Origin: Fodinibius halophilus
GTDB taxonomy: Bacteria; Bacteroidota; Rhodothermia; Balneolales; Balneolaceae
Assembly (NCBI RefSeq): GCF_011059105.1
Contig: NZ_JAALLS010000010.1
Coordinates: 1-64,000 of the forward strand
Length of the DNA: 64,000 bases
Direction of reading: 5' to 3'
The stretch's first letter is position 1, and the number at the start of each line of letters is the position of its first letter. A model generated the notes under the pieces. The model had not been told where the DNA came from and made no database searches. It saw nothing but the letters and a program-made list of their open reading frames with translations. The position numbers and the translations under genes are program-made. Shown piece after piece: positions 4,143-55,640 of this stretch.

Positions 4143-4838
4143 TTAGTCAGGGTCTGCCATAGCAACCGGCAATATCTTTCCATTGTAGAATGAGTGGCCG
4201 GTAAGGGCAAACTCTGAAATATATTGTCCCATTTCGGAAGCAGAAACCGGGGCTTCGAAACCGGGAAAAGCTTCTTCGAGCATATCGGTTTGTACGGCTC
4301 CCAAACACAATGTGTTTACGCTGATGCTTTGGTTACTGAGTTCTACCGACAAACATTCACTGAGAATACTTAATGCCCCTTTTGATACACTGTAAGCTGC
4401 CAGTCCGGGGAATTTAGAACTGCCCTGGTATCCCCCCATACTGCTTATATTAACAATGTGGGCATTATCATTAAAACAGTTAAGAAGCTGTCTGGTGATA
4501 TGCACTGCACTAATTAAATTACTTTCGATTTGGGAACGCCAGTCATCAAGAGTTAATTCAGCAAAAGGTTTATTAACAAGCGCCCCCGCATTATTTATGA
4601 GGATATCAATGCCCTCATAGTTTTGTGTTACCTGTGATATAAGGTTAGCAACGGCTTCCTCATCGGTAAGATCGGTAGGTATTGCCGTTATCATCTTGGC
4701 ATTGGTTTGTTCAAGTTCTTGTAGTGGTTTTTTTGAACGAGCAACTGCGATTACCTGAACCTCTTTATTAGCTAATAGTTTAGCTGTTTGAAAACCTATA
4801 CCACGGCTGGCGCCTGTTATAACTGCAGTTTTTATCAT
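4143..4838 (-). CDS. SDR family NAD(P)-dependent oxidoreductase
   Basis: A 231-residue short-chain dehydrogenase. TGASRGIG (residues about 8-15) is the dinucleotide-binding motif, NNAG (about 85-88) stabilises the Rossmann core, and the catalytic Ser of NISSMGG and the YSVSK motif complete the active site. The C-terminal segment is short, as in small cytoplasmic SDRs. It reduces or oxidises a carbonyl/alcohol, but the substrate cannot be inferred. It is divergent from the hisC-like gene across a 190-bp AT-rich gap that should hold both promoters. Confidence 0.85.
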   Translation of the reverse strand: MIKTAVITGASRGIGFQTAKLLANKEVQVIAVARSKKPLQELEQTNAKMITAIPTDLTDEEAVANLISQVTQNYEGIDILINNAGALVNKPFAELTLDDWRSQIESNLISAVHITRQLLNCFNDNAHIVNISSMGGYQGSSKFPGLAAYSVSKGALSILSECLSVELSNQSISVNTLCLGAVQTDMLEEAFPGFEAPVSASEMGQYISEFALTGHSFYNGKILPVAMADPD

Positions 4839-5027
4839 AATCAGAACAATTTTTTTATGAAGGTAACAAGTGGTTTGGGATCTTACAATAATGAATCAAA
4901 CAAAAAGTTTTAGGGCAAATCCGTTGTAAAAATGGGTTAATTTAGGCATATTAGAAACCTGAAATTTGGGACATTTATTAGTAGAAATAATCATTTTAAT
5001 TGGTAGTACACCAAGCGAATAATTGCT

Positions 5028-6149
5028 ATGGCAAATATGGATAACCGAAGTCTGGTTCCTCACAACATTCGAGATCTGTCTCCCTACGTAGCAGGAAAAA
5101 CAATTGCTGAAGTAGAGGATGAGTATGATCCGCCGCAGATATCGAAATTAGCCTCAAATGAAAATAGATTAGGTTGTAGTTCTCATGTACAGGCACAGGT
5201 TATCAAAGCGATGCAAGAGATTCAGGATTATCCGGATCCTGTATCTCTTCAACTGCGTGAGGTGCTTGCTGACCAAAATAATGTGTCTCCTGAAAATATA
5301 ATTGTGGGAGCCGGTTCAGAAAGCCTTATTGCCAATTTATGTCGCACATTCTTTTTGAATAATGAAGAAGCAATTACAGCCAACGCAACATTCGTTGGCT
5401 TTTTTGTGCAGGCCAATATTCGCGGTATATCGTTAAAAAAAATACCTGTAACTGATGATTATAGGTACGATTTAGATGCAATCGCAGGAGCGATATCAGG
5501 CCGTACAAAGATGGTATATATCGCCAATCCCAATAACCCCACAGGTACATATATCACCAGGTCTGAGTTTGAACGCTTTATGCGGAAAGTGCCTGAGGAT
5601 GTTATTGTTGTCATGGATGAAGCTTATTATGAGTTTGCCCAAGATGTATCGGATTATCCCCACAGCCTTGATTTTGATCATAATAATGTGATTACCTTAC
5701 GTACTTTTTCTAAGGCCTATGGGTTAGCTGGTTTTCGCATAGGTTATGGTATTGGCCCGGAGCACTTGATTAATGAAATGAGCAAGACCAAGCTTACTTT
5801 TGAACCCACAACTACAGCCCAAGCAGCGGCACTGGCAGCACTGGGTGATACTAAATTTCTTAAAAAAAGCCGCGACGTAGTTAAGAAGGGAAAGAAACGG
5901 CTATATCGATTTTTTGAAAAACATAATGTTGAATATGTGCCCTCTATTTCAAATTCCGTTATGATGATTCTACCTAACACCGAACAAGCTATTGCTTTTA
6001 CTCAAGCAATGATTGAGGAGGGGGTTATATTGCGCCGGATCAATGCTTTCGGTTTGCCTAACTGTGTGCGCATTACTATTGGTCGCGAACATGAGATGGA
6101 ACACTTTGAAAGAAGTTTCGAGAAGATATTAGAAGCACAAGAATTTTAA
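5028..6149 (+). CDS. hisC: Histidinol-phosphate aminotransferase (HisC-type class II PLP aminotransferase)
   Basis: The 373-residue protein matches HisC in length and motifs: KLASNEN near the N-terminus, YIANPNNPTGT for substrate and cofactor binding, VVMDEAYYEF with the PLP-contacting Asp and Tyr, and TFSKAYGLAGFRIGYG with the Schiff-base lysine. The reaction expected is transamination of imidazole-acetol phosphate with glutamate. No other histidine genes are nearby, and the downstream neighbour is a ketoacid dehydrogenase, so an aromatic or branched-chain aminotransferase role is a real alternative. The stop is followed within about 25 bp by the E1 gene. Confidence 0.8.
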   Translation: MANMDNRSLVPHNIRDLSPYVAGKTIAEVEDEYDPPQISKLASNENRLGCSSHVQAQVIKAMQEIQDYPDPVSLQLREVLADQNNVSPENIIVGAGSESLIANLCRTFFLNNEEAITANATFVGFFVQANIRGISLKKIPVTDDYRYDLDAIAGAISGRTKMVYIANPNNPTGTYITRSEFERFMRKVPEDVIVVMDEAYYEFAQDVSDYPHSLDFDHNNVITLRTFSKAYGLAGFRIGYGIGPEHLINEMSKTKLTFEPTTTAQAAALAALGDTKFLKKSRDVVKKGKKRLYRFFEKHNVEYVPSISNSVMMILPNTEQAIAFTQAMIEEGVILRRINAFGLPNCVRITIGREHEMEHFERSFEKILEAQEF

Positions 6150-6173
6150 GATAAGTTTTTGAATAAAACGGTT

Positions 6174-8276
6174 ATGCCAACTAATAAAGAAGCACAAATA
6201 GAATTACCGCCTATTGTTGACTCCGTTGATTGGGCTCATATAGCTGAGCTTATGCTCACTTCCCGAGCAATGGATGATAAAGAAGAGAATGAACTTGTCC
6301 CCAATAAAGAGGTTCTGTATCAATTTTCTGCGAGGGGGCATGAGCTTGGGCAGATATTGCTCGGCTCGCAACTAACCCACAAACATGATGCCGCCAGCGC
6401 CTATTATCGTTCTCGACCGTTGATGTTGTCATTGGGATTAGAGCTCGACGATGCAATGGCTGCTCCAATGGCTAAGTCTGGCGGATATAGTGATGGCCGG
6501 GATATTGGTGTAGTATGTAATAAACCGGGCCTTGACGGACCAACGGTATTACCAATGGCAGGAGATGTAGGCTCGCAGTATACACCAGCTATCGGATGGG
6601 CTCAAGGGATTCAATATCATAATCAGACACTTGAACAAGATGAATATGATCGTGCTATTTCAGTAGTGCTCGGTGGAGAAGGGTCTGTAGCAACAAACGG
6701 CTTTTGGTCGGCATTAACAATTGCTACTACTCAAGACCTCCCCATTCTTTTTTACATTGAAGATAATGGCTATGGTATTTCTGTTCCCGGTGAGTTCCAA
6801 ACTCCGGGAGGGAATATTGCTAAAAACCTGTATTCATTTAAAAATATCCGCATTTTCGATGGGGATGGAACAGATCCGGTTGAAGCCGCGGACCTGCTCA
6901 GCCAGTCAGTTAATTATGTGAGAGATCGTAAAGGGCCAGCTCTAATTCACTTGACAATGCCACGGCTGAATGGGCACTCCTATCAAGACAATCAGGCTTA
7001 TAAATCCCAAGAGCTCATTGAGCAAGAGCAAGAAGCCGATCCACTGAACAGTATAAAGACGTTTTTAGTACCTGACCGTATTACAGAAGCGGAGTGGAAT
7101 AATCTTGAAGAGAAGGCAGAAACTGATATCGAAGAAGCAACTAAAGCTGCTTTATCTCGTCCGGAACCCGATCCACAAGAGACCACACGCTATGCGTTTG
7201 AGGAGAAAAAGGAAGATGGCAGTGCAGATCTTCAGCTTATCGGAGGGCTCGCCCCTTCTGATCACACATTTCCCGAAAGTTCTGAGACACCAAATCCAGG
7301 CAAGCAGCGAATTAATATTGTTGAAGCCATCCGTAAAACGCTGGATTATGAATTAGAAACCAATCCCAAGGTGATGGTCTTTGGTGAAGATGTGGGCGCC
7401 AAAGGTGGGGTGCATGCCGCTACAATGGGACTGCAAACGGCGCATGGCGAATCGCGCGTTTTTGATACAAGCCTTTCGGAAGAAGGGATTATTGGCCGAT
7501 CAGTAGGACTTGCCTACAGTGGCCTAATGCCCGTAGCTGAAATCCAGTTCCGTAAATATGCCGATCCTGCTACAGAGCAACTTAACAATTGCGGAACTAT
7601 TCGCTGGAGAACAGCTAATCAATTTGCAGCACCAATTGTGGTACGTATGCCGGGAGGCTTTGCCAAATGTGGTGACCCCTGGCACAGCCTTTGTAACGAA
7701 GTGTTTTTTGCTCATGCTGTGGGCTGGCAATTAGTAATGCCCAGTAACGCTCAAGATGCTGTTGGACTGTTGCGGTCAGCATTACGAAGTAATAACCCTA
7801 CTATCTTTTTTGAACATCGTAACTTATTAGATGCTAAGTATGCACGTCGTCCCTATCCGGGTGATAAATATATTGTTCCTCTTGGTAAAGCAAAGACCTT
7901 GCGAGAAGGAAACGATGTTACAGTTGTTACATGGGGGGCTATGTGTGAACAATGTGAAAAAGCAGTTGACCAATCAGGTATCGATGCTGAGATTTTAGAT
8001 TTGCGTTCAATTATGCCGTGGGATAAAGAAGCTATTTTGAAATCAGTTCAAAAAACCAATCGCTGTTTGATTGTACATGAAGATACCCAAACAGCAGGTT
8101 TTGGGGCAGAAATAAGTGCTACCTTATCGAAACAGGCATTTACCTATTTAGATGCACCCATAGAACGTTTAGCAATGCCTGACATTCCGGTTCCTCATAA
8201 TGTGCAATTGATGGATTCGGTCTTGCCCAATGTGGATAAGATTACTAAAAAACTGAATTCAATAGTACGTTTCTAA
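6174..8276 (+). CDS. 2-oxoacid dehydrogenase E1, fused alpha and beta subunits
   Basis: One 700-residue chain carries both halves of a branched-chain or pyruvate-type E1. The N-terminal half has the E1-alpha thiamine diphosphate motif region (GGEGSVATNGFWSALTIA through IEDNGYGISVP). The C-terminal half from about residue 380 is E1-beta (VFGEDVGAKGGVHAATMGL, PIVVRMPGG, EHRNLLDAKY). The alpha subunit is usually a separate protein, and the fused form is known in Bacteroidota-like genomes. The ATG at 6174 is preferred over an in-frame TTG at 6159. The E2 and E3 components are not in the window. Proximity to the aminotransferase suggests amino-acid carbon catabolism (inference). Confidence 0.85.
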   Translation: MPTNKEAQIELPPIVDSVDWAHIAELMLTSRAMDDKEENELVPNKEVLYQFSARGHELGQILLGSQLTHKHDAASAYYRSRPLMLSLGLELDDAMAAPMAKSGGYSDGRDIGVVCNKPGLDGPTVLPMAGDVGSQYTPAIGWAQGIQYHNQTLEQDEYDRAISVVLGGEGSVATNGFWSALTIATTQDLPILFYIEDNGYGISVPGEFQTPGGNIAKNLYSFKNIRIFDGDGTDPVEAADLLSQSVNYVRDRKGPALIHLTMPRLNGHSYQDNQAYKSQELIEQEQEADPLNSIKTFLVPDRITEAEWNNLEEKAETDIEEATKAALSRPEPDPQETTRYAFEEKKEDGSADLQLIGGLAPSDHTFPESSETPNPGKQRINIVEAIRKTLDYELETNPKVMVFGEDVGAKGGVHAATMGLQTAHGESRVFDTSLSEEGIIGRSVGLAYSGLMPVAEIQFRKYADPATEQLNNCGTIRWRTANQFAAPIVVRMPGGFAKCGDPWHSLCNEVFFAHAVGWQLVMPSNAQDAVGLLRSALRSNNPTIFFEHRNLLDAKYARRPYPGDKYIVPLGKAKTLREGNDVTVVTWGAMCEQCEKAVDQSGIDAEILDLRSIMPWDKEAILKSVQKTNRCLIVHEDTQTAGFGAEISATLSKQAFTYLDAPIERLAMPDIPVPHNVQLMDSVLPNVDKITKKLNSIVRF

Positions 8277-8484
8277 GCGTTAGCTAAAGAGCCGTTCTTG
8301 GAAGGGATCGAATTCTTAGGCTTATTAGTATCGCTATTGATACATTCTCGTTTTACATTTCGAATTGGCAATAAACTTTAGTTTTATAAAAAGGACATTT
8401 GATGACTAAAGTAACTAGTGGGTGTTCTACATCTCAACTATGGCTTTGGTACGTCATGATCGATTTTAAAACCGTTTTCAAAGC

Positions 8485-10326
8485 ATGAAACTTAGTACAA
8501 AGTTATTTATTAGTTTTTCGGTGGTAATCATACTTGTTGGTGGCATCGGTATAACTTCTTCCTATATCAATGAAGCTGTCAAAGATCAGGTTACAGCCGA
8601 AAGTGCACAAGCAATTGACGAAATTGAGCTAGCCGGGGAACTGGGGTTACAGCTATATCAAAGCCTAACAAGAACCCAATACCTGCTTGAAGATCAATAT
8701 CGTAAAAGTTTGTCGATGAGCTTTAGTCGGGGGAATAAAACCCGAGAAACATTAGTAGCAGATATTGATGAATCTTTGAACAAGTTTCGACAGACGATAA
8801 GAAAAACGCGAAAACGTATTAAAGAGGAACCATCCAATATTTTTGAAGACAGTGTTCCATCAGAAGAGGGACTTGCAGTACTTAATAAGCTGGAAAAGAA
8901 ATTTAATATCTACAGTTCATTAATTGAGCAGCTGCAAAATATAGATCCCGAAAACTACAAAGATCAGAAAGAGTTTTTTACGGTTACTATTGAACCCTAC
9001 TTTCGGTCTAACCTATTACCGCTTATCGAAAAGGGACGGAAGAAGATCCAAAATAACCATCAACAAGAAATTACTTCCATAAATAGTCAGCTAGATCGTA
9101 TTGGGTATATTTTATCGGTAGCAACAATTGTGGCAATTGTAATTGCGATTATTTTGACGTTCTTCTTATACCGTTCTATTGCTAACCCGATTAAAAAGAT
9201 AGCTGCAGCTGCAAAAAGTATTGGCCAGGGGAACCTCCATGAGCGTATTGATTACAGTTCTAAAGATGAGCTCGGAGAATTGAGCGAGACCTTTGATCAT
9301 ATGGCTGAAAGTTTAAGCCAAACAACTGTTTCTCGTGATTATGTAGATAGTATTATTGAAGCAATGGCCGATTTGCTTGTTGTAACAGATGCTGAATATA
9401 ACATAACACGGGTTAATTCTGCCGGTGTAGCTATGCTGGGATCTACCGAAGAGAAATTATTAAACGAACCGGTTCAGAATATTTTTAAAAGTTCAGTACC
9501 TGATCTTTTTGAAGAAAATGCTACCAATAGCAGTAAGGGAAACGATGCGGTATTATTAGCCTCTGATGACAGTGCTTCTTCCATTCCGGTTAGTGTTTCT
9601 AAAGGAATGATTAAAAGCAGCAAAAATACAATTAAAGGGTATGTTATTGTTGCCAGTGATATAAGTGCAGAAAAAGAAGCCCAACAAAAGATCACCCGAT
9701 CTTTACAAGAAAAAGAAGTACTGTTAGCCGAAATCCATCATCGTGTAAAAAATAACTTAGCGGTTATTTCCGGGCTCTTACAGATGCAAATCTGGGATAC
9801 TGAGAACGATTATGCTGTTTCTGCATTGCAGCAGAGTCAAATGCGGGTGCGTAGTATCGCGCTGGTCCACGAAAACCTATACCAATCTGAGAGTCTCTCT
9901 TATATCGAATTTGATTCGTTTACCGAAGACCTTCTGGAATCGATTAAAGATTCATATTTGGATGATGACATTACAATTAATACTGATATTGATAATATTG
10001 TTCTTACTGTAAGCCAGGCAATTCCTTGTTCCTTAATCATCAATGAGCTGATCTTTAACGCCTTTAAAGATGGGAATGAGGCGGCTATAAGCTTACAAAT
10101 GAAAAAGCAGAAAGAGGAGATCTACTTTATTATAAAAGATGATGGGATCGGAATTAAAGAAGAAGATTTAGATTCAGATTCATTACGCATTTCATTGCTT
10201 CAAGTGTTGGCCAATCAATTAAATGGCAGGTTAAATATCCACAAGGACAATGGGATAGCAATTGAAATCTGCTTTGTTCCCGAAGAGATTGATCCCGAAC
10301 ATAGCAACACCCTGCATTTTGGATAA
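8485..10326 (+). CDS. Membrane sensor histidine kinase (HAMP-PAS-HisKA_2-HATPase)
   Basis: The 613-residue protein opens with a transmembrane helix (about 8-27), followed by an extracytoplasmic helical region and a second transmembrane helix (about 205-228). A HAMP linker (about 229-280), a PAS domain (about 285-400) and a HisKA_2 dimerisation domain with EIHHRVKNN follow, so the phosphoacceptor is His418 or His419. The C-terminal ATPase has NELIFNAFKDG as N-box and DDGIGI as G1-like box. No response regulator gene is adjacent. The kinase core closely resembles that of the propeller kinase downstream. Confidence 0.85.
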   Translation: MKLSTKLFISFSVVIILVGGIGITSSYINEAVKDQVTAESAQAIDEIELAGELGLQLYQSLTRTQYLLEDQYRKSLSMSFSRGNKTRETLVADIDESLNKFRQTIRKTRKRIKEEPSNIFEDSVPSEEGLAVLNKLEKKFNIYSSLIEQLQNIDPENYKDQKEFFTVTIEPYFRSNLLPLIEKGRKKIQNNHQQEITSINSQLDRIGYILSVATIVAIVIAIILTFFLYRSIANPIKKIAAAAKSIGQGNLHERIDYSSKDELGELSETFDHMAESLSQTTVSRDYVDSIIEAMADLLVVTDAEYNITRVNSAGVAMLGSTEEKLLNEPVQNIFKSSVPDLFEENATNSSKGNDAVLLASDDSASSIPVSVSKGMIKSSKNTIKGYVIVASDISAEKEAQQKITRSLQEKEVLLAEIHHRVKNNLAVISGLLQMQIWDTENDYAVSALQQSQMRVRSIALVHENLYQSESLSYIEFDSFTEDLLESIKDSYLDDDITINTDIDNIVLTVSQAIPCSLIINELIFNAFKDGNEAAISLQMKKQKEEIYFIIKDDGIGIKEEDLDSDSLRISLLQVLANQLNGRLNIHKDNGIAIEICFVPEEIDPEHSNTLHFG

Positions 10327-10462
10327 TATTTAAAGTAATTAGATCCGTTTATTATATTTAATGTTAAATTAAATACAGTTTGCAGAAAGGGATGTAAATA
10401 AGTGGTGGAGAGATAAGTGAGAAAACCCTATTGGGAATTTAGATATACGAGAGTATCTTTTA

Positions 10463-10837
10463 ATGGGATTCTCTGTTGTCTTATTTCCATTTCTTGGTCA
10501 TAGTCAGCGGTATAATATAGAAGCTTTTTTGTTGATGAGGAGCTCGCCTACAGCCAGACTTTTGATGTGGTATAAACAAGCGATGGTGATCTTTGAATCG
10601 GTATATATGTAGTGGCATTACCAAGTTTAATGGTAAAAATTTTAAGAACTATCACTAACAGTGGGGGCTGAAAGCCCAATAGTACAGAAGCATTTTACGG
10701 GAATAGCAAAGAGAACTTTTGGGCCCAAATAAAATGAACTCATACGTAATGCTAACAACTATGCCTTTAATGACCAACGCGAAGAGAGTATTCAGCTTCA
10801 AATAAAAGAAGCTGCTTTAAATGTACCAGTTGCATAG
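10463..10837 (+). pseudogene. Remnant of a propeller sensor histidine kinase gene
   Basis: Reading through frameshifts, 10463-10660 encodes a signal-peptide-like start then fragments equivalent to the first propeller blade of the next gene (TSDGDL, IG, GITKFNGKNFKNYH against TSDGFI, GGLSRFDGNSFKTY). From 10733 to the TAG at 10835 an open stretch reads NELIRNANNYAFNDQREES, the N-box of a HisKA_2-type kinase ATPase domain. The middle of the protein is therefore deleted and several stops and shifts are present. It is a decayed paralogue directly upstream of the intact gene. Confidence 0.7.
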
Positions 10838-11075
10838 AATTGGTATTTTGTCTATCCAAAAGAATAAATTAACAATTTTTTCTAAGTATAGATTCTTTTA
10901 TCTTCATCGCTGTTGGAAAGAAAACTATGCGTAAAGTATTATTTTTCATAGATATATTAGTTACAATAACTATTATTTAATAATAGTTTTCTACATTAAT
11001 TGTTATTGACAGATCATTTATTTGAAATAAAAGGGGTATAAGCTGAGATGCTTAAATTAGGTTTTAGGAGCAGTA

Positions 11076-14000
11076 ATGAGATATAATTGGGTTTTTAAAA
11101 ACAAAGTTTTCTACACATTCTTATTACTGGTAGGAATACCGTTTGTAGGAGTAGCCCAGCACTACGACTTTAAAATTTATTCAGTGAATGAGGGATTGCC
11201 ACAGGGACAAGTCCATGACATGGTTCAAACCAGTGATGGTTTTATCTGGATGGCAACAAATGGTGGAGGATTAAGCCGGTTCGACGGCAACTCTTTTAAA
11301 ACCTATACCACTGAAGATGGGCTCCGTAACAATGCAATACAAAATTTATATGAAGATTCTCAGGGGCGACTTTGGGTCGCCAACTACCCGGGGGGAGTGG
11401 TAACTTTTAAAGGTGATAGCTTGGTGAATCCTTTCCCTGATGATTCGCTAACACATTATGAAGTGTGGCAAATTAAAGAGTTTAATAATGAAGTTTGGTT
11501 TGGAACTTATGGCGGAGGTATCTTTGTACTTGATGATGGAGAATTTCGTCGAATTCGTAAACAAGACGGACTTGTAAGTAATTCGATATGGGATTTTAAA
11601 CAATTCAGTGATGGGGTTATCTGGATTGCAACACAACATGGTATTTCAAAATTTGAGGATGGTTCTTTTACAAATTATACCGTTGAGGATGGAGTGAGTG
11701 GGGCAAAGGTTTATCAGATAACCGAAGATAAGAAAGGCAATTTATGGTTTGCTACCAGCGATGGGGTATCAATATGGGATGGTAAAACATTTCGAAAAAT
11801 TAAAAAGATCAATGGAATTGATTTAGGCTACGTCTTTGATGTTAAAGCGGCTGCCAACGGCAATGTATGGATAGGTACTGAGATGAAGGGCGTTTTTGTT
11901 TTTGATGGTAACAGCTACAAACATTTTACCCGCGAAAATGGACTGAGCAGTAATTATATATATACCTTTTTTGAAGATGCCAACAACAATATGTGGGTTG
12001 CAACAGACGAAAATGGAGTCAACCTTTATCGTGGGGATGCTTTTGTTTTTTATGGTAAAAATTTTGGATTTTCTTCTGATGGGGTGCTAAGTGTTGATAT
12101 TGACCGGGACGGAACTATCTGGACCGGTACCGAAAATGGAGTTGATTCTTATGACGGAGAGGAAGTTAGGCATCATCCATTGCCTGAAAGGTATGCCGAC
12201 AGTAATATCTGGGAAATTGAAGAACTACCTAATGGCAACCAGTTAATAGTGATGCCGGATAACACGTTGCTGGAGTACGATGGAGATGAGTACCACAATT
12301 TTACCAAAGAAAAGGGTCTAAAACGGTGGTATACTTATGACGTCCTTATCGATTCTAAGGGTGTATGTTGGCTTGCTACTGATTATGGCATTATTCGGTT
12401 ACAAGATGGGCAGGTAGAACATTTTACTATAGAAGATGGCTTAGTCGGTAATATTGTCCATCATATCTACGAAGACACACAGGGTGATTTCTATATTGCA
12501 ACTACTGCCGGCCTGGGGATATACGATGGCAATAGCTTTGAGAAGGTTACAATTGAAGATGGGTTAGCCCATAACAGGATTAATTATATTACAGAAGATG
12601 ATAAGGGCAATATTTGGTTGGGTTCCGCTTCCGGTGTTTCCGTTTTACAACCTCAAAATGGGGGAAGCCAATATTCAATTACTAATTTTGGTAAAGAAGC
12701 GGGTATGCGACTACTGGATTCGCATTTCATTTGGTTTGACCAAGAAGGGCACTTGTGGCAGGGAACAAATGGAGGGATAAATCGCCTTAACGTTCCCCGG
12801 TACTGGGAAACCGGAAAAATGAACCTGGTGCATTATAAATTATTTGAAGAAGGAATGGGAGCTGAGTTTAACTTCAAAGCCTTGGCAGAAGATAGTTCTG
12901 GTACGGCCTGGTTTGGTAGTATGGAGGGCGTGATGAAGCTGGATATCTCTAAGCTTAATGCCAGAACGAAAACCAACCCTCCGACGGTCTATATAACAGA
13001 TATAAAAAGGAACGTTAAAAAAGTAAAGTGGGAGAAGTATAACTCTAAGCTTGAATACCAAACCGGACGATTGATATATCCATCAGTGACTTTTCCGCCC
13101 GGTGAGCATACTTATACATTCTCTTTTTCAGGTCTGGAATACCGCCAACCGGGAAATATGGAATACCGCTACCGAATGAAAGGGTTTGAAGATACTTGGT
13201 CACCTTTATCGGCAAACAATACAGCTACCTATACAAATCTGGAGCCGGGAGATTATACTTTGATGGTTCAGGCTGTTGGCGGATCCCCCAAAATGAAATC
13301 GGAGGTGACATCATATCAATTTTCTGTTGCTTATCCCTTTTGGCACACCTACTGGTTTTATACCTTGGTGGTTATAAGTTTTGTAGGGATAATATATGGC
13401 TACATCAGGGTACGGCTGGGCATGCTCGAAAAGAATAGATTGCAAGAGTTAGTAGAAGAGCGCACAAAAGATTTACGTGAAGCACTCGGAGAAAAGGAAG
13501 TATTGATTAAAGAGATCCATCATCGAGTAAAAAACAACCTTGCCGTAATTTCAGGATTATTAGAGTTACAACAGGGATATTCAGAGGACGATTTTTCCAG
13601 AAGAGTGCTTTCCGAAAGTCAACGACGGGTACAGTCGATTTCAATGATTCATGAAAAACTATACCAGAGTGAACGCCTTGCAGAAATTGATTTCAAAAAG
13701 TACGTCAAAGAGTTCATCGATATTGTCTCCTACTCATTTAATTATACAGAAAAAGAGATTACCGTTGGAATTGATGTCGATGGCTTTAAATTAGGTGTTG
13801 ATCAAGGAATACCCTGTGGCCTTATACTAAATGAGCTTGTGAGCAATGCCTATGAACATGCGTTCGAAAATCAAGAGAAAGGTCATATTGAAATAAGCAT
13901 GAAAGAAAATGGAGAAAGTAATATTGAACTTGTTATAGCTGATAATGGTAAAGGATTACCCGAAGATTTTGATATCAGCAAAAGTGACAGTTTGGGTTTG

Positions 14001-14129
14001 TCACTTATTGAGACTCTTTCAATGCAATTAAAAGGAGATTTTGAGTTTTACAATACCACCGATGGTGCGAAATTTGAATTAGAGTTCCCCAAGAAAGAGG
14101 CCCCACTCAAGGTACCCATAGACGAATAG
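11076..14129 (+). CDS. Two-component propeller sensor histidine kinase (Reg_prop-Y_Y_Y-HisKA_2-HATPase)
   Basis: A signal peptide (residues 1-27, ending VGVAQ) exports a long sensor region of repeated blades with the GxxxWxATxxGGLSRFDGxxF pattern, typical of two tandem seven-bladed Reg_prop propellers (about 30-640). A Y_Y_Y domain follows (about 690-755), then one transmembrane helix (about 758-780), a coiled-coil linker and a HisKA_2 domain with KEIHHRVKNN, placing the acceptor His at 815 or 816. The ATPase domain has NELVSNAYEHAF and DNGKGLPED. In Bacteroidota, such proteins sense periplasmic ligands, often carbohydrates. This one lacks the fused response regulator and AraC domain of classic hybrid versions, so its partner is elsewhere. 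Confidence 0.9.
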   Translation: MRYNWVFKNKVFYTFLLLVGIPFVGVAQHYDFKIYSVNEGLPQGQVHDMVQTSDGFIWMATNGGGLSRFDGNSFKTYTTEDGLRNNAIQNLYEDSQGRLWVANYPGGVVTFKGDSLVNPFPDDSLTHYEVWQIKEFNNEVWFGTYGGGIFVLDDGEFRRIRKQDGLVSNSIWDFKQFSDGVIWIATQHGISKFEDGSFTNYTVEDGVSGAKVYQITEDKKGNLWFATSDGVSIWDGKTFRKIKKINGIDLGYVFDVKAAANGNVWIGTEMKGVFVFDGNSYKHFTRENGLSSNYIYTFFEDANNNMWVATDENGVNLYRGDAFVFYGKNFGFSSDGVLSVDIDRDGTIWTGTENGVDSYDGEEVRHHPLPERYADSNIWEIEELPNGNQLIVMPDNTLLEYDGDEYHNFTKEKGLKRWYTYDVLIDSKGVCWLATDYGIIRLQDGQVEHFTIEDGLVGNIVHHIYEDTQGDFYIATTAGLGIYDGNSFEKVTIEDGLAHNRINYITEDDKGNIWLGSASGVSVLQPQNGGSQYSITNFGKEAGMRLLDSHFIWFDQEGHLWQGTNGGINRLNVPRYWETGKMNLVHYKLFEEGMGAEFNFKALAEDSSGTAWFGSMEGVMKLDISKLNARTKTNPPTVYITDIKRNVKKVKWEKYNSKLEYQTGRLIYPSVTFPPGEHTYTFSFSGLEYRQPGNMEYRYRMKGFEDTWSPLSANNTATYTNLEPGDYTLMVQAVGGSPKMKSEVTSYQFSVAYPFWHTYWFYTLVVISFVGIIYGYIRVRLGMLEKNRLQELVEERTKDLREALGEKEVLIKEIHHRVKNNLAVISGLLELQQGYSEDDFSRRVLSESQRRVQSISMIHEKLYQSERLAEIDFKKYVKEFIDIVSYSFNYTEKEITVGIDVDGFKLGVDQGIPCGLILNELVSNAYEHAFENQEKGHIEISMKENGESNIELVIADNGKGLPEDFDISKSDSLGLSLIETLSMQLKGDFEFYNTTDGAKFELEFPKKEAPLKVPIDE

Positions 14130-14130
14130 G

Positions 14131-14829
14131 TTACAAGGACAAATAATGTTGACGTTCATCTTCAGGAAATTTTTCAATAGCATATCGAAGCATTGTTCGT
14201 GGCATCTGTTGAACATGTTGATCTAAAAACCGTTTTTCACATTTACGATCACGATTTCCTATCTCCCGAAGCATCCATCCAACGGCCTTGTGAATAAGAT
14301 CGTGGTTATCATTCAGTAGTATCTCGGCAAGGGCCAGTGTATCTTCATACTCCTCTTGATGGATAAAATAGAAGGTACTTATAATCGCAATGCGCCGTTC
14401 CCACAGGTTATCCGATTTGGCCCAGCTATACAGTATATCCCGGTCTTTATCCATAAGGTAGCGACCGACAATATAGTGTGCAGAGCTGTCCACAAGATCC
14501 CAGTTATTAACGTACCGGGTATTTCGTTTATAGAGGTTGAACAGCTTTTTATGGGAGGTTTCATCCGCTTTTTCGGCTTTATGTACCATTATAACCAAAG
14601 CACAGAGGCGTTCCTCATGCCACTCAGATTGTAGTAATTTTTCAGTTTCCGGTAGTGAGAGCTCGTTAAAATCTTTGGCAATATTACGGATTTGGGGCGT
14701 AGGGATCCCCAAAAACCGATCCCCTTCGCCATACTCTCCGGGCCCTGTTTTGAAAAACTTTTGGGAACGTTCAGCACGTTCAGGATTCTCCTTTTCTCGA
14801 AGGGCCTGCTGTACTTCTTTATGATTCAT
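14131..14829 (-). CDS. DNA alkylation repair protein (AlkD-like HEAT-repeat glycosylase)
   Basis: A 232-residue all-helical protein with the AlkD-family signatures FFKTGPGEYGEGDRFLGIPTPQIR near the N-terminus and NNWDLVDSSAHYIVG, NLWERRIAIIST and DNHDLIHKAVGWMLREIG further on. AlkD-type proteins excise bulky or positively charged alkylated bases using HEAT repeats that wrap DNA. The ATG at 14829 is chosen because an upstream extension would overlap the enoyl-CoA hydratase gene; the two genes are 10 bp apart and probably cotranscribed. It meets the propeller kinase gene tail to tail with only one base between them. Confidence 0.9.
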   Translation of the reverse strand: MNHKEVQQALREKENPERAERSQKFFKTGPGEYGEGDRFLGIPTPQIRNIAKDFNELSLPETEKLLQSEWHEERLCALVIMVHKAEKADETSHKKLFNLYKRNTRYVNNWDLVDSSAHYIVGRYLMDKDRDILYSWAKSDNLWERRIAIISTFYFIHQEEYEDTLALAEILLNDNHDLIHKAVGWMLREIGNRDRKCEKRFLDQHVQQMPRTMLRYAIEKFPEDERQHYLSL

Positions 14830-14839
14830 AACAGGTTTG

Positions 14840-15601
14840 CTACGAATTTTTAAACTCATTAATGAAATTTTTGGTGAAATCAGAAAGTACCAGGCGTCCG
14901 CTGATTTCAGCTCGTTCTTCCAATAGCTCATCCCAGTTTTCGGTGCCTTCCCAGAATACTTTTTTGAGTTCAGCCATCGCATCGGGACTGTAATCAGAGA
15001 GCTGGCTCGCTAGGTCTGCCACCTGTTTATCTAGCGCTTCGTGAGAATCACAAACTTTAGAAAAGAGTCCCTTTTGACGAGCCCATTCAGCATCATTCCA
15101 GCTGGAGGCGTCAATGGATAGGGTGCTAAATGCAGAAGTCCCGACCTTTCGCTTTACAGCCGGCCCCACCACAAACGGTCCAATACCCAAGGCGAGTTCA
15201 CTCAGCTTTATAGCCGCAGATTTGTGTGCTATGGTGTAATCTCCCGCGGAGGCGATGCCTACACCACCACCAACGGTTTTGCCCTGCACACGCACAATAG
15301 TAAGCTTGGGGCACTGCCGCATAGCGTTAAGAACTTTGGCAAAACCCATGAAGAAATGTTTGCCTTCTTCATAGTTGTCGATGGCAATCAGCTCATCAAA
15401 CGAAGCCCCTGCACAGAAAGCACCTTCGCCCCGGCTTTTGAGCACCAGTACATGTACGTACTCCTTTTCGCCCATCTCAGTGATGGTAGAGGCAAGGTCG
15501 CGCAGCATCTGGCCGGGCAAGGAATTACCTTTGGGATGATAAAATTCAATAGTTCCAATGTTGTTTTCGATGGTTGTGGTAATTTCTCCGTTTTCGGGCA
15601 T
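14840..15601 (-). CDS. Enoyl-CoA hydratase/isomerase family protein, probably phenylacetate pathway
   Basis: A 253-residue crotonase-fold protein with the oxyanion-hole segment GAFCAGASFDEL and the second glycine-rich segment VGGGVGIASAGDYTIA. KLSELALGIGPFVVGPAVKRKVG holds the position of the first catalytic glutamate. It lies downstream of paaZ on the same strand, so a PaaF-like hydration step (2,3-dehydroadipyl-CoA) is likely, but the sequence alone does not separate PaaF from other crotonases. An IS481-type element and selfish units now separate it from paaZ. Confidence 0.75.
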   Translation of the reverse strand: MPENGEITTTIENNIGTIEFYHPKGNSLPGQMLRDLASTITEMGEKEYVHVLVLKSRGEGAFCAGASFDELIAIDNYEEGKHFFMGFAKVLNAMRQCPKLTIVRVQGKTVGGGVGIASAGDYTIAHKSAAIKLSELALGIGPFVVGPAVKRKVGTSAFSTLSIDASSWNDAEWARQKGLFSKVCDSHEALDKQVADLASQLSDYSPDAMAELKKVFWEGTENWDELLEERAEISGRLVLSDFTKNFINEFKNS

Positions 15602-45459: not shown

Positions 45460-45650
45460 GTTATTAAAAGGGAGACAAGGACCGGTAATCTGATTCCGAT
45501 AACCGATTGCTCAACTTGCCCCGCAGAGTGGGGGACAGGTTTGGAATAAGGATTTATTGGACGAATAAGATGCTAGGGTGGGTCAGGACTGGCTGTCCTA
45601 CGGGAGCTGCTTGCCATTTCCCTGTTTGAAGGTGGTGACCATTCGTTTAT
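45460..45650. other. attC-like spacer with shared array repeat
   Basis: GATAACCGATTGCTCAAC at about 45499 resembles the left arm of an attC site, and the segment 45537-45640 is a member of a repeat family found next to other cassette genes (copies at 48176, 49656 and 55548). It abuts the stop codon of the CPBP gene. Confidence 0.5.
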
Positions 45651-48059: not shown

Positions 48060-48297
48060 ACTATCGGCAGTATAACAACGACATATGAACATATGCTGTA
48101 TACGAAAGATTGTTGATTTATTAAATAATAAACGGAGAGCTAAAAAGCCAGAAATCCAGGGCCGTGCCCACCGATAAAGGTTTGAACCAAGGATTTACTG
48201 GACGAATATGATGTTAAGGTCGGTGAGGACTAGCCTGCCTCGCTTCCGTTCTACGGGGCTGCTTTGATGTTTCCCTTTTTACAGGGGGTAGGGTTAT
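48060..48297. other. attC-like spacer with shared array repeat
   Basis: GTATAACAACGACATATG (about 48080) is a left-arm-like segment, and the core TTTATTAAATAATAAACG and GCTAAAAAGCCAG follows. Positions 48176-48297 belong to the array repeat family also seen at 45537, 49656 and 55548. The right outer box is not clear. Confidence 0.5.
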
Positions 48298-49391: not shown

Positions 49392-49779
49392 ACCTAACGA
49401 TTGGCGTATAACCGGCAGGCGCCGGCATATCGATTTTATTTTAAACGAAAGGTTAACTAATAAATGAAAGGGAGGCAAGGAAAAGGCGAGACTTGTCCAC
49501 GTTAATGAAGGAGACTGGAAGCGGGATATCTGGGATAGTAGTTCCGCTGGAAATACAGCTTCTGCCCATTGGCAGAAGATAAGTTTCGACAGCTGTTGGA
49601 ATGTGGATGCCGGCAGGCAGTCCGAGCGTGCTCACTGAAACCGGTTGCCAGCCATAGGTTTGAACCAAAGATTTACTGGACGAATATGATGCTAAGGTAG
49701 GTGAGGACTAGCCTGCCCCGTTCTACGGGGTCTGCTTGAGATTTCCCTTTTTGAAAGGGTTATACCGCTTTTGTTAGAT
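49392..49779 (-). other. attC site, unusually long
   Basis: ACCTAAC (49392-49398) and GTTAGAT (49773-49779) fit the outer boxes, and GGCGTATAACC pairs with GGTTATACCGC next to them. The 390-bp interior holds the repeat block 49528-49762, which also occurs at 55420-55640. The right box overlaps the stop codon of the vapC-like gene. Confidence 0.7.
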
Positions 49780-50180
49780 TATTTAGCAAATTCCTGTGGA
49801 CTAATAGCAATGTTGGGAAATTCACTTACAATTTTTTTATCAAATGTGACCAGTTGAACATCCAAATCATCAGCTAATGCCACAAATTCACAATTGTATG
49901 CCGAACAGGGTGAATCCGAAACAAGACTCATAACTTGTGTTGAGTTTACTTCGAATTCATTGGCATTCATTAATTGTTCGGCTTCTTCTGTAGCCTGCAA
50001 GACAACCGACAAATCTAAAATTTCCTTCCGTAAATATATCGATAGGACATTCCTGAATTCGGACCGCCAGAGAAGAGGGGCAATCCAATTATCATCTTTC
50101 TTAAGCATCTTGTAAACCCACTCGTCCATATCATTTGGTACCCACATGCTTGCAATTACATTGGTATCGACAACAATCAT
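49779..50180 (-). CDS. VapC-like PIN-domain toxin
   Basis: A 133-residue PIN-domain protein: MIVVDTNVIASMW has the first conserved Asp, EFRN the Glu, and YNCEFVALADDLD together with LVTFDKK the remaining acidic residues. PIN toxins are Mg-dependent RNases. It follows its antitoxin gene with a 4-base overlap. Toxin-antitoxin pairs are typical cassettes in chromosomal integrons. Confidence 0.85.
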   Translation of the reverse strand: MIVVDTNVIASMWVPNDMDEWVYKMLKKDDNWIAPLLWRSEFRNVLSIYLRKEILDLSVVLQATEEAEQLMNANEFEVNSTQVMSLVSDSPCSAYNCEFVALADDLDVQLVTFDKKIVSEFPNIAISPQEFAK

Positions 50181-50419
50181 GGACGCCCTTGGTCAATTGC
50201 TTGTTGAATTTCATCCATAGAAAGGGTGCCTTTTGCTTTCTGTTTAAGTCTTTTAGCACGAGTAATTACTTGATCAGGATCTCGTCGGTTGCTTTGGACT
50301 AATTTCTTCAAATAAACGATCACTTCACTGTTAATGCTCCGATGATGTAGGTCTGCCTGTTTCTTTATTTTGGCATAGACTTCGTCGGGTATATCCCGGA
50401 TTGTGATATTTGTTGGCAT
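50177..50419 (-). CDS. FitA/VapB-like antitoxin
   Basis: An 80-residue protein with a ribbon-helix-helix N-terminus (NITIRDIPDEVYAKIKKQADLHHRSINSEVIVYLKKLV), typical of FitA-like antitoxins that bind DNA and neutralise the adjacent PIN toxin. It is the first gene of the pair. Confidence 0.85.
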   Translation of the reverse strand: MPTNITIRDIPDEVYAKIKKQADLHHRSINSEVIVYLKKLVQSNRRDPDQVITRAKRLKQKAKGTLSMDEIQQAIDQGRP

Positions 50420-50672
50420 AGCACTTGAATTTAATTTGGTTTCAAATTAAAACTAATCAGAAGGGGTGATTATTACAAGAAAAGCGGTATAACAACCTCG
50501 CGCATAAGCTGCACGCGAAGAAATGTTGATTTATTAAATAACGAAAGGGTAACTAAAATACAGAAAGAGAGTAAGAAAGAGCCAGGCCTGTCCGGTATTA
50601 TGCATTAGAAAGAGGACACCTGTAGATTGGGTAGAAACCACATTTAGTACCAACCCAACAGGAGGTCCTCTT

Positions 50673-51710
50673 ATGAACAGAACTACACATTACGCAGGAA
50701 TGGATATTCATGCAAGCAATACCGTCATACAGGCCATTGACCCAACTGGGGAGCAAGTGCAACAGCGGGAGGTGCCCACACGAGCAGATAAACTGATCAA
50801 CTGGGCCCGCAACTACCCACATGACCAACTGCACGTAATCCTTGAACAGGGAACCCATGCACGCTGGGTGGCAAGTGCTCTGGCCCAGTGGGTCGACCGA
50901 CTGGTCATCTGTGATCCGGCTGAGAATGCCTTGGTTCACAGGGGGGGAAACAAAAATGACCGAACCGATGCCCATAAACTGGCTCGACTGCTTCGACTGG
51001 GCGAATACAAGTCCGTTTGGTGGCAACCTTTGGAAGCCCGCCACGTCTTCAAGTCTCGCATGAAGATGTATCTGCGCCAGCGCCGGGCCAAGGCTGCGGC
51101 CATTCAACGGCTGACCCACTACCTTCGGCATATAGGGGTACGGATTCCTACCGGCAGCAGCCGGTTTAGTTTCCGCAGGGGCAAGAGGTGGGTCGGTCAA
51201 ATTAGCTCCGGTGAGCATCGGAGGCTGGCCCAACAGAAGCTGGCGTTTATCACCTACCATCACGAGCAGTCGTTGGAAATCTTTCGAGGCATCCGCGAGC
51301 AAGGCAAAACCTACTGGGAAATTGCCGAATTTGCCAAGATTCCTGGTATAGGTCCGGTAGGCTCTCATCTGTTTTCGGCCTTGTTGGAAGATCCCCACCG
51401 ATTTTGCAAGCGCAGCCAGGTCTATAAGTTTTGCCAGTTGGCCGTTGTGAGTCGCAGTTCCGCCGGACAGCCGGTGAGTCGCAAACGCTTGGATAAAAAG
51501 GGATATGGGGAGCTCAAAGCCATGAGTTATCGGGCTTGGCTGAGTGCTGCTAATACAAAGAATGATAACGAAGTTAAGCGATTTTGGAAGGATAGCTGAC
51601 GCCGGGCCAGCAGTGAACGCAAAGCCCGACTTAACACGCAACGTAAAATTATTAACGTCATGTGGAGCCTATGGAAGAACGGACGGATCTATGATCCGGA
51701 CAAATTTTAA
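50673..51710 (+). pseudogene. IS110-family transposase, interrupted by an in-frame TGA
   Basis: The N-terminal DEDD-type domain starts AGMDIHASNTV with the first Asp at residue 11; LEQGTHARW and NDRTDAHKLARLLRLGE carry further acidic residues. The C-terminal Transposase_20 region has IPGIGPVGSHLF and SRKRLDKKGYGELKAMSYRAW. A TGA at 51597-51599 interrupts the frame, which continues uninterrupted as RRASSERKARLNTQRKI to a TAA at 51708. Either the gene is inactivated or readthrough is needed. Confidence 0.85.
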
Positions 51711-52058
51711 TATCTAAATAACCGCTTTTGACAGCAATCCCATCCCAGCGATGGGTCAGGCCCGGGCAGGCTCTTATTAACGCGTAATCCAGCAGTCCGC
51801 TGCTGAGGTTCTCGTCCGGTTATTCCGACTGCTGTCGGAACACCGTTTGAATACTAAGCCAGATAAGACATTAGACGTTTCCACGCAAAGGAAAACAGTC
51901 TCAGATAAGCGCCTGGACAAGATTCATGTCCTCTTAAAAAGCAATCTCGTACATCGGGGATGGAGAAATGGAAGTCAAAAGTAGTACGAAATTATCCAAT
52001 AGTAGGTGTCCTAGCAACCGCTCAAATAGGACTAAAGGAGAAGTATGGAGTGAGTTGA
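51711..52058 (+). ncRNA. Putative guide (seekRNA-like) region of the IS110-family element
   Basis: The long noncoding stretch follows the transposase and precedes the right subterminal repeat, the position where IS1111-group elements encode their seekRNA. It holds several hairpins, including CATCCCAGCGATGGG-type and the palindrome TTCCGACTGCTGTCGGAA (51823-51840). ATTAACGCG (51776-51784) is the exact reverse complement of CGCGTTAAT in the attC flank at 52075-52083, a candidate target-guide match. The RNA itself is inferred. Confidence 0.45.
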
Positions 52059-52106
52059 CTTTCTAATGCATAAACGCGTTAATGCGCTGGTTAGCCGTAT
52101 TTTCTA

Positions 52107-52496
52107 TTATTCTATAGCATTCTCTTTTAGATGTTCGGCAACTTCCTCTTTGGAAATATCTTTTGATAAAAAGTCTAAGACTAAGTCAGCAAGTTCCAGA
52201 TCATAAGATTCCTCTATTTCATATCCATTGAGATACAAAAAGGTCAGGGCAGAAGCCAAAGCTGTTCGTTTATTTCCATCGACGAATGGATGTCGGATCG
52301 TTAAACATATGATATAACTGGCTGCCATTTCAAATAGGTCATTCAGATATTCCCCGTCAAAGCTAGCCTTGGGAGCATCCGCGCAAGCTTCAACATCTTG
52401 TTCTTCTCGAAGACCTGGATCACCGCCTGCTTTTTGAATCTCTTGATTATGGATGAATAAAATGTCTTCCGTAGTTAGAAAGGAAGGTTCTTTCAT
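52107..52496 (-). CDS. Doc/Fic-family death-on-curing toxin
   Basis: A 129-residue Fic-fold protein with the motif HPFVDGNKRTAL (residues about 69-80), a near-canonical Doc active site that phosphorylates EF-Tu in P1 Doc. The N-terminus begins FLTTEDILFIHNQEI, as in Doc homologues. It shares one base with the antitoxin gene (TAATG), so the two are coupled. Confidence 0.88.
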   Translation of the reverse strand: MKEPSFLTTEDILFIHNQEIQKAGGDPGLREEQDVEACADAPKASFDGEYLNDLFEMAASYIICLTIRHPFVDGNKRTALASALTFLYLNGYEIEESYDLELADLVLDFLSKDISKEEVAEHLKENAIE

Positions 52497-52702
52497 TATT
52501 CACCCAGTTTATCTAACGATTTTCGATGCTTTTTGCTGACTTCTTGATAAGCAGACTTTGCATCAACTTTTTTAATCAAAAGTCCTTCATCTTGTGGGAT
52601 GATTTCGACTTGGTCGTCATCTTCCACTTTCAAAAGCTTTAGCAGGGCTTTTTCGAGCAAGACACCACGACTGTTACCTATTTTTTGCAGTTTCTTAATC
52701 AT
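52496..52702 (-). CDS. AbrB/MazE-type antitoxin
   Basis: A 68-residue SpoVT/AbrB-like swapped-hairpin protein (MIKKLQKIGNSRGVLLEKALLKLL), the antitoxin of the adjacent Doc-like toxin. The pairing of an AbrB-type antitoxin with Doc differs from the Phd antitoxin of phage P1. Confidence 0.85.
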   Translation of the reverse strand: MIKKLQKIGNSRGVLLEKALLKLLKVEDDDQVEIIPQDEGLLIKKVDAKSAYQEVSKKHRKSLDKLGE

Positions 52703-54225: not shown

Positions 54226-55419
54226 ATCTTTCCAAAAAGGAAGTCCTCACTTAGATTAGAGATAATCAATCGTAACTAACTAAGGAGGACCCCATGATTC
54301 ACGTAGGAATCGATCTTCATACAACTAATATGATGAATGTAGCTTTAAATGACAACGGGGAAGTTGTCCAGAAGGCCAAGCTGCCGACGTCCCGGCGATC
54401 CCTTGAGGATTTTTTCGGTACATTTGATGATCCAGTGAAAGCCGTCGTCGAATGTACCAGCAACTGGTATTGGCTGTCGGACTGGTGTCGGTCCAATGGC
54501 GTGGACCTGACGCTGGCCCACGCGAAGATGGTCAAGGCGATCAGCTATGCCAAGGTCAAAACCGACACGGTTGATGCGAAGACTCTGGCCGAGCTACTAC
54601 AGGCCGACCTTATTCCGGAGGCCTACCAGGTACAACCCGACCGACGAGAGCTGCGGGAGCTGACCCGCGGTCCCGACAGCTGTCGGGATGATCCAGTGGC
54701 GGGGCAAGCTGCAGTCGGCGCTGTGGGGCCAGGCGATCAAGTATAACGTGCAGATCACAGGCAGCCAGTGGCGACAGCTGGATAACCTACAAGCCTGGCT
54801 CCATCCACAATTGCCCAAGGCGGCGGTCTGCAGGCCGAGCTGATGATCGCCCAACTCAGTCAGCTGCAATTGCATATCCATCGGGTAGAAGAAATTGAGA
54901 AACAAGTCCCCTTTGAGGCTGCCGTCGAGTGCCTGATGGCCGTCCCCGGACTGGGCAAGGTAGGGGCATGAACCATTATGGCCGAGATTGGCGATATTAC
55001 CCGATTCCCGAGTGCCAAGCAGTTTGTCAGCTACTGTCGGCTGGTACCGGGTAGTAAAAACAGTGGAGGGAACAGGAGGCATAAATCAGGCAATAAAGAC
55101 GGGAATAAGTACCTGCGAGCAGCTTTCGGGCAAGCAGCCGTCTCTGCATATACCCATTACAAGGTCGTGAAGAAATTTTATCGAAAAATTAAACGCCGCA
55201 GCGGTCGCTCGGTAGCCCGAGCCGTTGTAGGCAAAGAGCTGGCCAAAGGCGTTTGGTATATGTTGACACGAGATGAAGAATACAAAGGATTTAAGGGGCA
55301 TCCCGACAGTTGTCGGGACTCCTTAAACCTGCTGGCCCCAACCGATAAGCCCGAACGCCTAAGAGGGACATCGAGCCCGTGCGCCCCGGTTGGGACATCG
55401 GTTGGCTGGCCGGTTAAAG
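54226..55419 (+). mobile_element. Degenerate IS110-family element in an attC site
   Basis: Begins at the attC crossover point and runs to about 55419, with a possible short inverted end (ATCTTT near 54226 and AAAGAT near 55416). It carries one transposase gene broken in several places. The right side continues into the array repeat at 55420, so the right end of this attC and the beginning of the next are missing, as after an IS-mediated deletion. It is more GC-rich than its surroundings. Confidence 0.7.
54294..55400 (+). pseudogene. IS110-family transposase, frameshifted
   Basis: The first part (IHVGIDLHTTNMMNVAL, VVECTSNWYWLSDW, KVKTDTVDAKTLAELL) is a DEDD-type IS110 N-terminal domain. A palindrome TCCCGACAGCTGTCGGGA at 54671-54688 occurs where the frame changes. 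The next part (IQWRGKLQSALWGQAIKYN to LPKAAV) is one frame over, a base is missing near 54828, and a TGA interrupts at about 54970. The C-terminal part resumes as IMAEIGDITRFPSAKQFVSYCRLVPG. A second palindrome is at 55301-55318. The gene is inactive. Confidence 0.85.
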
Positions 55420-55640
55420 ATCTGGGATAGTGGCTCCGCTGGAGCTACAGTCTCTGTCCATTGACGGAAGATAAGTTCCGACAGCTGTCGGAATGTGGAC
55501 GCCAGCAGGCAGTCCGAGCGTGATCACCGAAACCGGTTGCCAGCTAAAGGTTTGAACCAAGGATTTATTGGAGTAATACGATGCTAAGGTAGGTGAGTCC
55601 GCCAGCCGACGGATTGAGATTTTCCTTTTTGAAGGGGTTA
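55420..55640. repeat. Array repeat block, copy of 49528-49762
   Basis: ATCTGGGATAGT, ACCGAAACCGGTTGCCAGC and AGGTTTGAACCAAGGATTTA segments align in order with the block inside the attC at 49392. It contains the palindrome TTCCGACAGCTGTCGGAA (55476-55493). It abuts the stop codon of the HEPN-like gene. Confidence 0.75.

Follow-up and report, generated by a model that had tools for sequence, protein, structure and literature searches.

A predicted guide RNA in an IS1111-type element of the Balneolaceae and its match to the L' arm of integron attC sites

An IS1111-attC group of insertion sequences is said to have been described by Tetu and Holmes in 2008 and by Post and Hall in 2009. The closest systems with an RNA component include: (i) the IS1111 elements with a seekRNA (ISEc11, ISKpn4, ISPst6 and ISPa11), for which attC targeting and the choice of target by an RNA derived from the noncoding region (NCR) are published in PMC11187229, and (ii) IS621, whose bridge RNA has target- and donor-binding loops with a core dinucleotide within each pairing (PMC11208160). 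Earlier publications on this kind of guide-RNA system are PMC11208160, PMC11616780 and PMC11089894. A literature search of openly licensed papers returned none that treats integrons or IS110 elements in the Balneolaceae and no other paper on an attC-targeting seekRNA.

The element compared with these systems lies in a window of 64,000 nucleotides, the whole stretch of Fodinibius halophilus DNA that was analysed (Table 1). On comparative sequence evidence, it is very probably an IS1111-type insertion sequence of the Balneolaceae (Fodinibius/Aliifodinibius relatives) whose 3' noncoding region encodes a two-stem-loop seekRNA/bridge RNA and which targets the attC L' arm. The kind of element is already published with regard to IS1111 family, attC targeting and seekRNA; new are the Balneolaceae lineage, the internal position in attC and the presence in the same window of another IS110-type lineage, which sits at the R' box of attC.

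Table 1. Features of the element and of the interrupted attC, in window positions
Feature	Position	Strand	Remark
Left part of attC: R'' GTATAAC (50487-50493), L'' arm, loop, left target half ending GTC-CG	50487-50594	+	Arm TAACAACCTCGCGCATAA at 50490; the relatives' 38 complete empty attC share this layout
IS1111-type element, 1482 bp	50593-52074	+	Ends from empty versus filled sites; CG 50593-50594 included
Left terminal extension, 7 bp, CGGTATT	50593-50599	+	
Left subterminal inverted repeat, 13 bp, ATGCATTAGAAAG	50600-50612	+	15 bp with outer TT/AA counted
Transposase frame, DEDD/IS110 type	50673-51710	+	TGA at 51597-51599 interrupts
Predicted seekRNA/bridge RNA region	51750-51922	+	Alignment of 13 elements, consensus fold of 12; ends approximate
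Predicted right target guide (T / RTG), ATTAACGCG	51776-51784	+	Would pair with CG-CGTTAAT of the top strand, on the right side of the insertion point
Hairpin CCAGCAGTCCGCTGCTGAGG separating the two target guides	51789-51808	+	
Predicted left target guide (B / LTG), CTCGTCCG	51811-51818	+	GTCCG matches left flank GTC-CG
TTCCGACTGCTGTCGGAA, in place of the relatives' 3' strand of the outer target-loop stem	51823-51840	+	Outer stem pairs broken
Candidate right donor guide (RDG), ATAAGAC	51863-51869	+	Against left end GTATTAT, 6/7; register +1
Predicted left donor guide (LDG) position, ATAAGCG in the window	51905-51911	+	
Right subterminal inverted repeat, 13 bp, CTTTCTAATGCAT	52059-52071	+	
Right terminal extension, 3 bp, AAA	52072-52074	+	
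Right part of attC: target half CG-CGTTAAT, L' arm, R' box GTTAGCC (52090-52096)	52075-52096	+	

Several features are shared with the seekRNA elements of the IS1111 family as PMC11187229 presents them. The noncoding region lies downstream of tnp, and the predicted guides fall at 51776-51911 inside its 348 nt. The top-strand guide lies 5' of the bottom-strand guide, an order also shared by the aligned relatives; the two matches overlap at the insertion point (here CGTCCG, 51813-51818, matches the left target side and overlaps the right-guide match at CG), and guides are naturally redirected between relatives. Like the IS1111-attC group, the element enters the attC sites of integron cassettes at a single point and in a single orientation; the target is "one end" of attC in the wording of PMC11187229, whereas here it is the inner L' arm of a Balneolaceae attC. 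The plan of two loops, with the core dinucleotide within each pairing, is also that of the IS621 bridge RNA. By contrast with IS621 (PMC11208160), the RNA is at the right end, the target guides are reversed in order, the subterminal repeats are long and the core is CG (AG or GG in relatives) rather than CT.

The ends of the element agree with the IS1111 family, in which 11-13-bp subterminal repeats are flanked by 7-bp left and 3-bp right extensions. The same geometry is found here (7 bp + 13-bp repeat ... 13-bp repeat + 3 bp) with the shared CG counted on the left, and PMC11187229 gives this geometry for IS1111. An initial annotation, made from the window alone, had placed an element with 15-bp subterminal inverted repeats at 50598-52096. 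The repeats are perfect at 50598-50612 and 52059-52073 and the element is present, while its bounds are moved to 50593-52074 by the comparison with empty sites; thus, 52075-52096 is attC and not element. The second copy of the CG lies at 52075-52076, and element bounds shifted by this shared CG are an alternative.

The transposase frame has the DEDD_Tnp_IS110 and Transposase_20 domains, both over the cut-off, as expected of the DEDD/IS110 type first noted. The noncoding stretch of about 350 bp reported 3' of it measures 348 nt after the full frame, provided that the internal TGA is read through; the protein then has 345 aa, compared with 330-350 aa for transposases of the IS1111 family. Both copies of a related genome (G011) have an uninterrupted frame. 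The transposases of the IS1111 elements with seekRNA are distant from this protein, which aligns with that of IS5075 over 316 columns at 17% identity (hhalign, Prob 92.8, E 3.8e-7) and also matches IS621. The strict form of the GL-P----S(T)G motif of the IS1111 C-terminal domain is absent from the window transposase, which reads QLAVVSRSSAG in this region (KLAVRKFTSDG and KLAITRHTSDG in genome G058). The seekRNA elements of the family have G in the SG motif; by contrast, most clade members read here keep the S and have A or D in place of the G; of the rows read, L075 alone has SG (L074, L076, L077 and L078 were ignored, as wrong frames had been chosen). Since PMC11187229 calls the motif a consensus with exceptions, its absence is not taken as excluding the IS1111 family. 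This G is called important in the IS1111 family; its replacement by A or D applies to most of those read among P0001-P0004 and their relatives.

The target site is defined by its uninterrupted versions. The pattern GCGAGGTNNG-N(0-12)-TTAATGC occurs at 60 places in 18 of 92 family genomes, compared with one match each in three of 92 for the reversed control pattern. Empty sites GTC-CG-[CA]GTTAATGC (GTC-CG-[CA]GTTAATGCGC in the form used for the end comparison), set against the filled ends, locate the point of exchange at the CG that both share. A strict RYYYAAC...GTTRRRY scan of the window for attC gave no match, because attC sites of the Balneolaceae conserve little besides AAC/GTT, and the layout observed in relatives was used in its place. 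This layout comes from 45 unique empty sites, of which 38 were complete at both ends and seven were dropped; the length is 125-133 bp in all but one site. An intI gene adjoins the target sites in the five genomes checked: G009 has fourteen empty sites at C2:545483-572188 and intI at 576659, and in G011, G013, G014 and G019 intI lies at most 5 kb from a target site. In the element's own genome, intI is over the cut-off on contig C37.

Half of the empty places (30/60) are of the CG-[CA]GTT type. None of the other empty types, e.g., GTCCCCTT, was found occupied by the present lineage; occupied sites are all of the CG-[CA]GTT type, as expected if CG and guide matter. In the window, the core CG begins 15 bp before GTTA, within the inner L' arm, which suggests that attC is open to attack at an internal point and not just at its end. 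The cassette genes on either side of the element (49779-50419 and 52107-52702) resemble toxin-antitoxin pairs, with a PIN protein (just under the cut-off) paired with a FitA-like RHH and a Fic/DOC protein paired with a small partner lacking a Pfam match.

Folding of the noncoding region of 12 relatives (RNAalifold, window excluded) gives one target stem-loop and one donor stem-loop; thus, comparison with the seekRNA/bridge-RNA plan, proposed with the initial annotation, yields a conserved two-stem-loop guide fold. The stems show many double changes, i.e., covariation. The donor hairpin retains its pairs in 10-12 of the 12, and as many as five types of pair occur, while the inner target hairpin, which has compensating changes, is kept in 7-11 of 12 only. 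The window has no Rfam family at the gathering threshold and no tRNA by ARAGORN. A repeat pairing 50577-50593 with 51759-51775 (I3) was discarded as a guide, since the 51759-51775 arm belongs to the outer RNA stem.

The best evidence for reading these segments as guides is their apparent natural reprogramming in 10 diverged elements. Relatives were taken from a search of the class, in which 15 of 244 genomes gave matches at E <= 1e-35, and 13 noncoding regions were aligned by the local-pair method, as default MAFFT misaligned the target loop in the window group. Permutation tests covered 10 diverged elements with different targets, with fixed guide windows set after sequence inspection; L009, L011 and L077 were left out (lineage already represented, or no right flank). 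For each element, the score takes the longest matching run shared by the RNA and that element's flank or end, and the values are added up over all 10. The sum is 69 for the right guide against its own right flank (permuted mean 34.6), 57 for the left guide against its own left flank (35.0) and 66 for the LDG against right end plus core (45.5), each reached in 0 of 200,000 permutations. With position left free over the whole noncoding region, the right guide again gives 0/200,000 and the left guide p = 0.023. No signal is seen in five displaced control windows (4,422 to 14,994 of 20,000) or, for the left guide, in the opposite-strand control (6,529 of 20,000). For the right guide, the control on the same strand does show some signal (235 of 20,000), which is probably due to the near-palindromic sequence of several targets. 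The RDG scores 56 versus 51.3 (270 of 20,000 permutations) in a register chosen by sliding, and its assignment is tentative.

Individual elements illustrate the same relation. L010, with a transposase 35% identical, has ACCCGCGGCT against AG-CCGCGGGT and TGAATAG on the left; the guide AAACCAAT of L072 stands against ATTGGTTT, and L071 has GCTTGCGG in both RNA and left flank. The shortest right-guide runs are those of L074, with 3 nt, and L076, with 5 nt. The window copy has ATTAACGCG at CGCGTTAAT, and genome G019 has the matching guide ATTAACTCG at a CGAGTTAAT site (CGAGTT). Both fully visible G011 copies carry ATTAACGCG, yet two G011 right junctions read CGAGTT; a single mismatch next to the core may be tolerated, or identical copies may have been misjoined in the assembly. 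At the LDG position, G011 and G019 have ATAAACG, matching right end plus core ATAAA-CG. Among copies of a related element, L074, L082, L087 and L089 (G141) share an identical left flank and differ in their right flanks, so that the left end or target assigned to them is provisional. Two further copies, L090 and L091 (G141:C1:84025-86560), are in head-to-tail order, and the right end of the first leads straight into the left end of the second, an arrangement as expected from insertion at a copy's own end.

The comparison bears on whether the transposase itself recognises the folded attC hairpin or the attC sequence, with a coincidental guide match. The arms of the 38 complete attC are complementary, with unpaired extra bases (mean score 10.8 versus 5.0 shuffled), and every insertion lies in the same arm of attC with the same orientation, as such recognition could also produce. 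Relatives with 35-39% identical transposases, however, sit at unrelated sites with the RNA altered at the same positions to match, and the match to the linear target involves both strands and spans the insertion point, which makes recognition by the protein very unlikely.

Guide reading of the attC arm was first proposed from a 9-nt match, in which the noncoding ATTAACGCG is the exact reverse complement of CGCGTTAAT (52075-52083). The match holds and corresponds to the predicted right target guide, although this is one guide only of three or four. A match of this length is reached in 12 of 1000 first-order Markov resamples (348-nt noncoding region versus the first 20 nt of flank); by itself it is modestly unlikely by chance and not acceptable evidence, and it becomes convincing because of the comparative tests across relatives. 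The same resampling figure leaves room for a piece of attC captured in an earlier imprecise insertion rather than a guide. Other elements, however, have a different, matching word at the same RNA position inside the conserved two-loop fold, and capture is thus a shade less probable still than recognition by the protein.

Guide-directed insertion into attC also accords with the junctions of other copies. Ten distinct right junctions are available (the window, C17 of its own genome G000, three in G011, C6 of G013, G019, two in G091 and one in G037); one more right end in G011, that of the first copy on C9, was left out, as the contig ends 7 bp into the flank. All ten read ACG-[CA]GTT and run into the GTTA of attC, so that the location inside attC holds, with intI beside the arrays, and none of the ten is at a site without the attC arm. 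The seven distinct left junctions all end in GTCCG; GGCGA lies upstream in five of them and is absent in the window and on C3 of G011. Gene cassettes are moved by IntI, and the element is within a cassette array, but its arrival as cassette cargo, which would make the attC context uninformative on targeting, is the least probable reading of all, as attC is interrupted at one fixed base in 10/10 right junctions from different cassettes and genomes and uninterrupted versions of the same site are present elsewhere.

By analogy with the published family, the element would circularise and form a promoter at its joined ends; the predicted circle junction has a promoter-like TTGACT-17-TATTAT. The RNA would be produced from the noncoding region and loaded on the DEDD recombinase. 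The two guides of its first loop would pair with both sides of the target and the second loop would read the element's own joined ends. The loaded recombinase would deliver the circle to the L' (inner) arm of attC, with strand exchange at the shared CG. In this scheme RNA production, circular form and strand exchange are modelled on the published family; the sequences themselves show where the element ends, which site it targets, how the guides covary with target and donor, and the fold.

The window copy is probably inactive, a relic of past insertion. It is most likely dead because it combines the stop codon, a broken RNA stem and an altered donor guide. Pairs are broken in the outer target stem, with the TTCCGACTGCTGTCGGAA hairpin instead, and at the base of the donor stem, and the LDG position reads ATAAGCG versus ATAAACG in the readable lineage members (G000 C17, L009, L011, L046 and L049). 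The C17 copy is the one further piece in the same genome, a right-end fragment (C17:10398-10597) in another attC; since its left flank is the continuation of the attC loop, it looks like the remnant of an internal deletion.

A second IS110-type element, with a broken transposase frame, lies at about 54227-55639 in another attC of the same array. Its junction, GCGC-GG/GTTAG, is at the R' box of attC, the site of strand exchange by IntI. All seven copies of this element in the genus share the junction kind (10 of 11 matches read). GCCTAA, the reverse complement of TTAGGC in the R' box, is in the downstream noncoding part of six of the seven, and the seventh (L097) has a shortened noncoding region without it; L021 carries GCCTAACC. 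The GCCTAA is a candidate guide to GTTAGGC. On balance, it seems somewhat more likely than not that Balneolaceae integrons are targeted by two separate RNA-guided IS110/IS1111-type lineages, with guides independently set on different parts of attC (L' arm and R' box GTTAGGC), and with those of the first lineage rewritten to unrelated targets in relatives. If so, attC would be a recurrent landing pad for converging guide RNAs. The first lineage is a distant one in which natural variation directly reveals guide, donor and target (ten diverged elements, ten targets), offering natural examples of reprogramming for IS1111-type recombinases and a predicted RNA-guided integron parasite outside Proteobacteria.

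The array is littered with decayed copies of the second element. Right-end fragments are found in the window (49528-49762, 48175-48227 and 45537-45586) and in L003 (455-550 and 2268-2416), and at least two of them end at an attC-like GTTA or ATTA.
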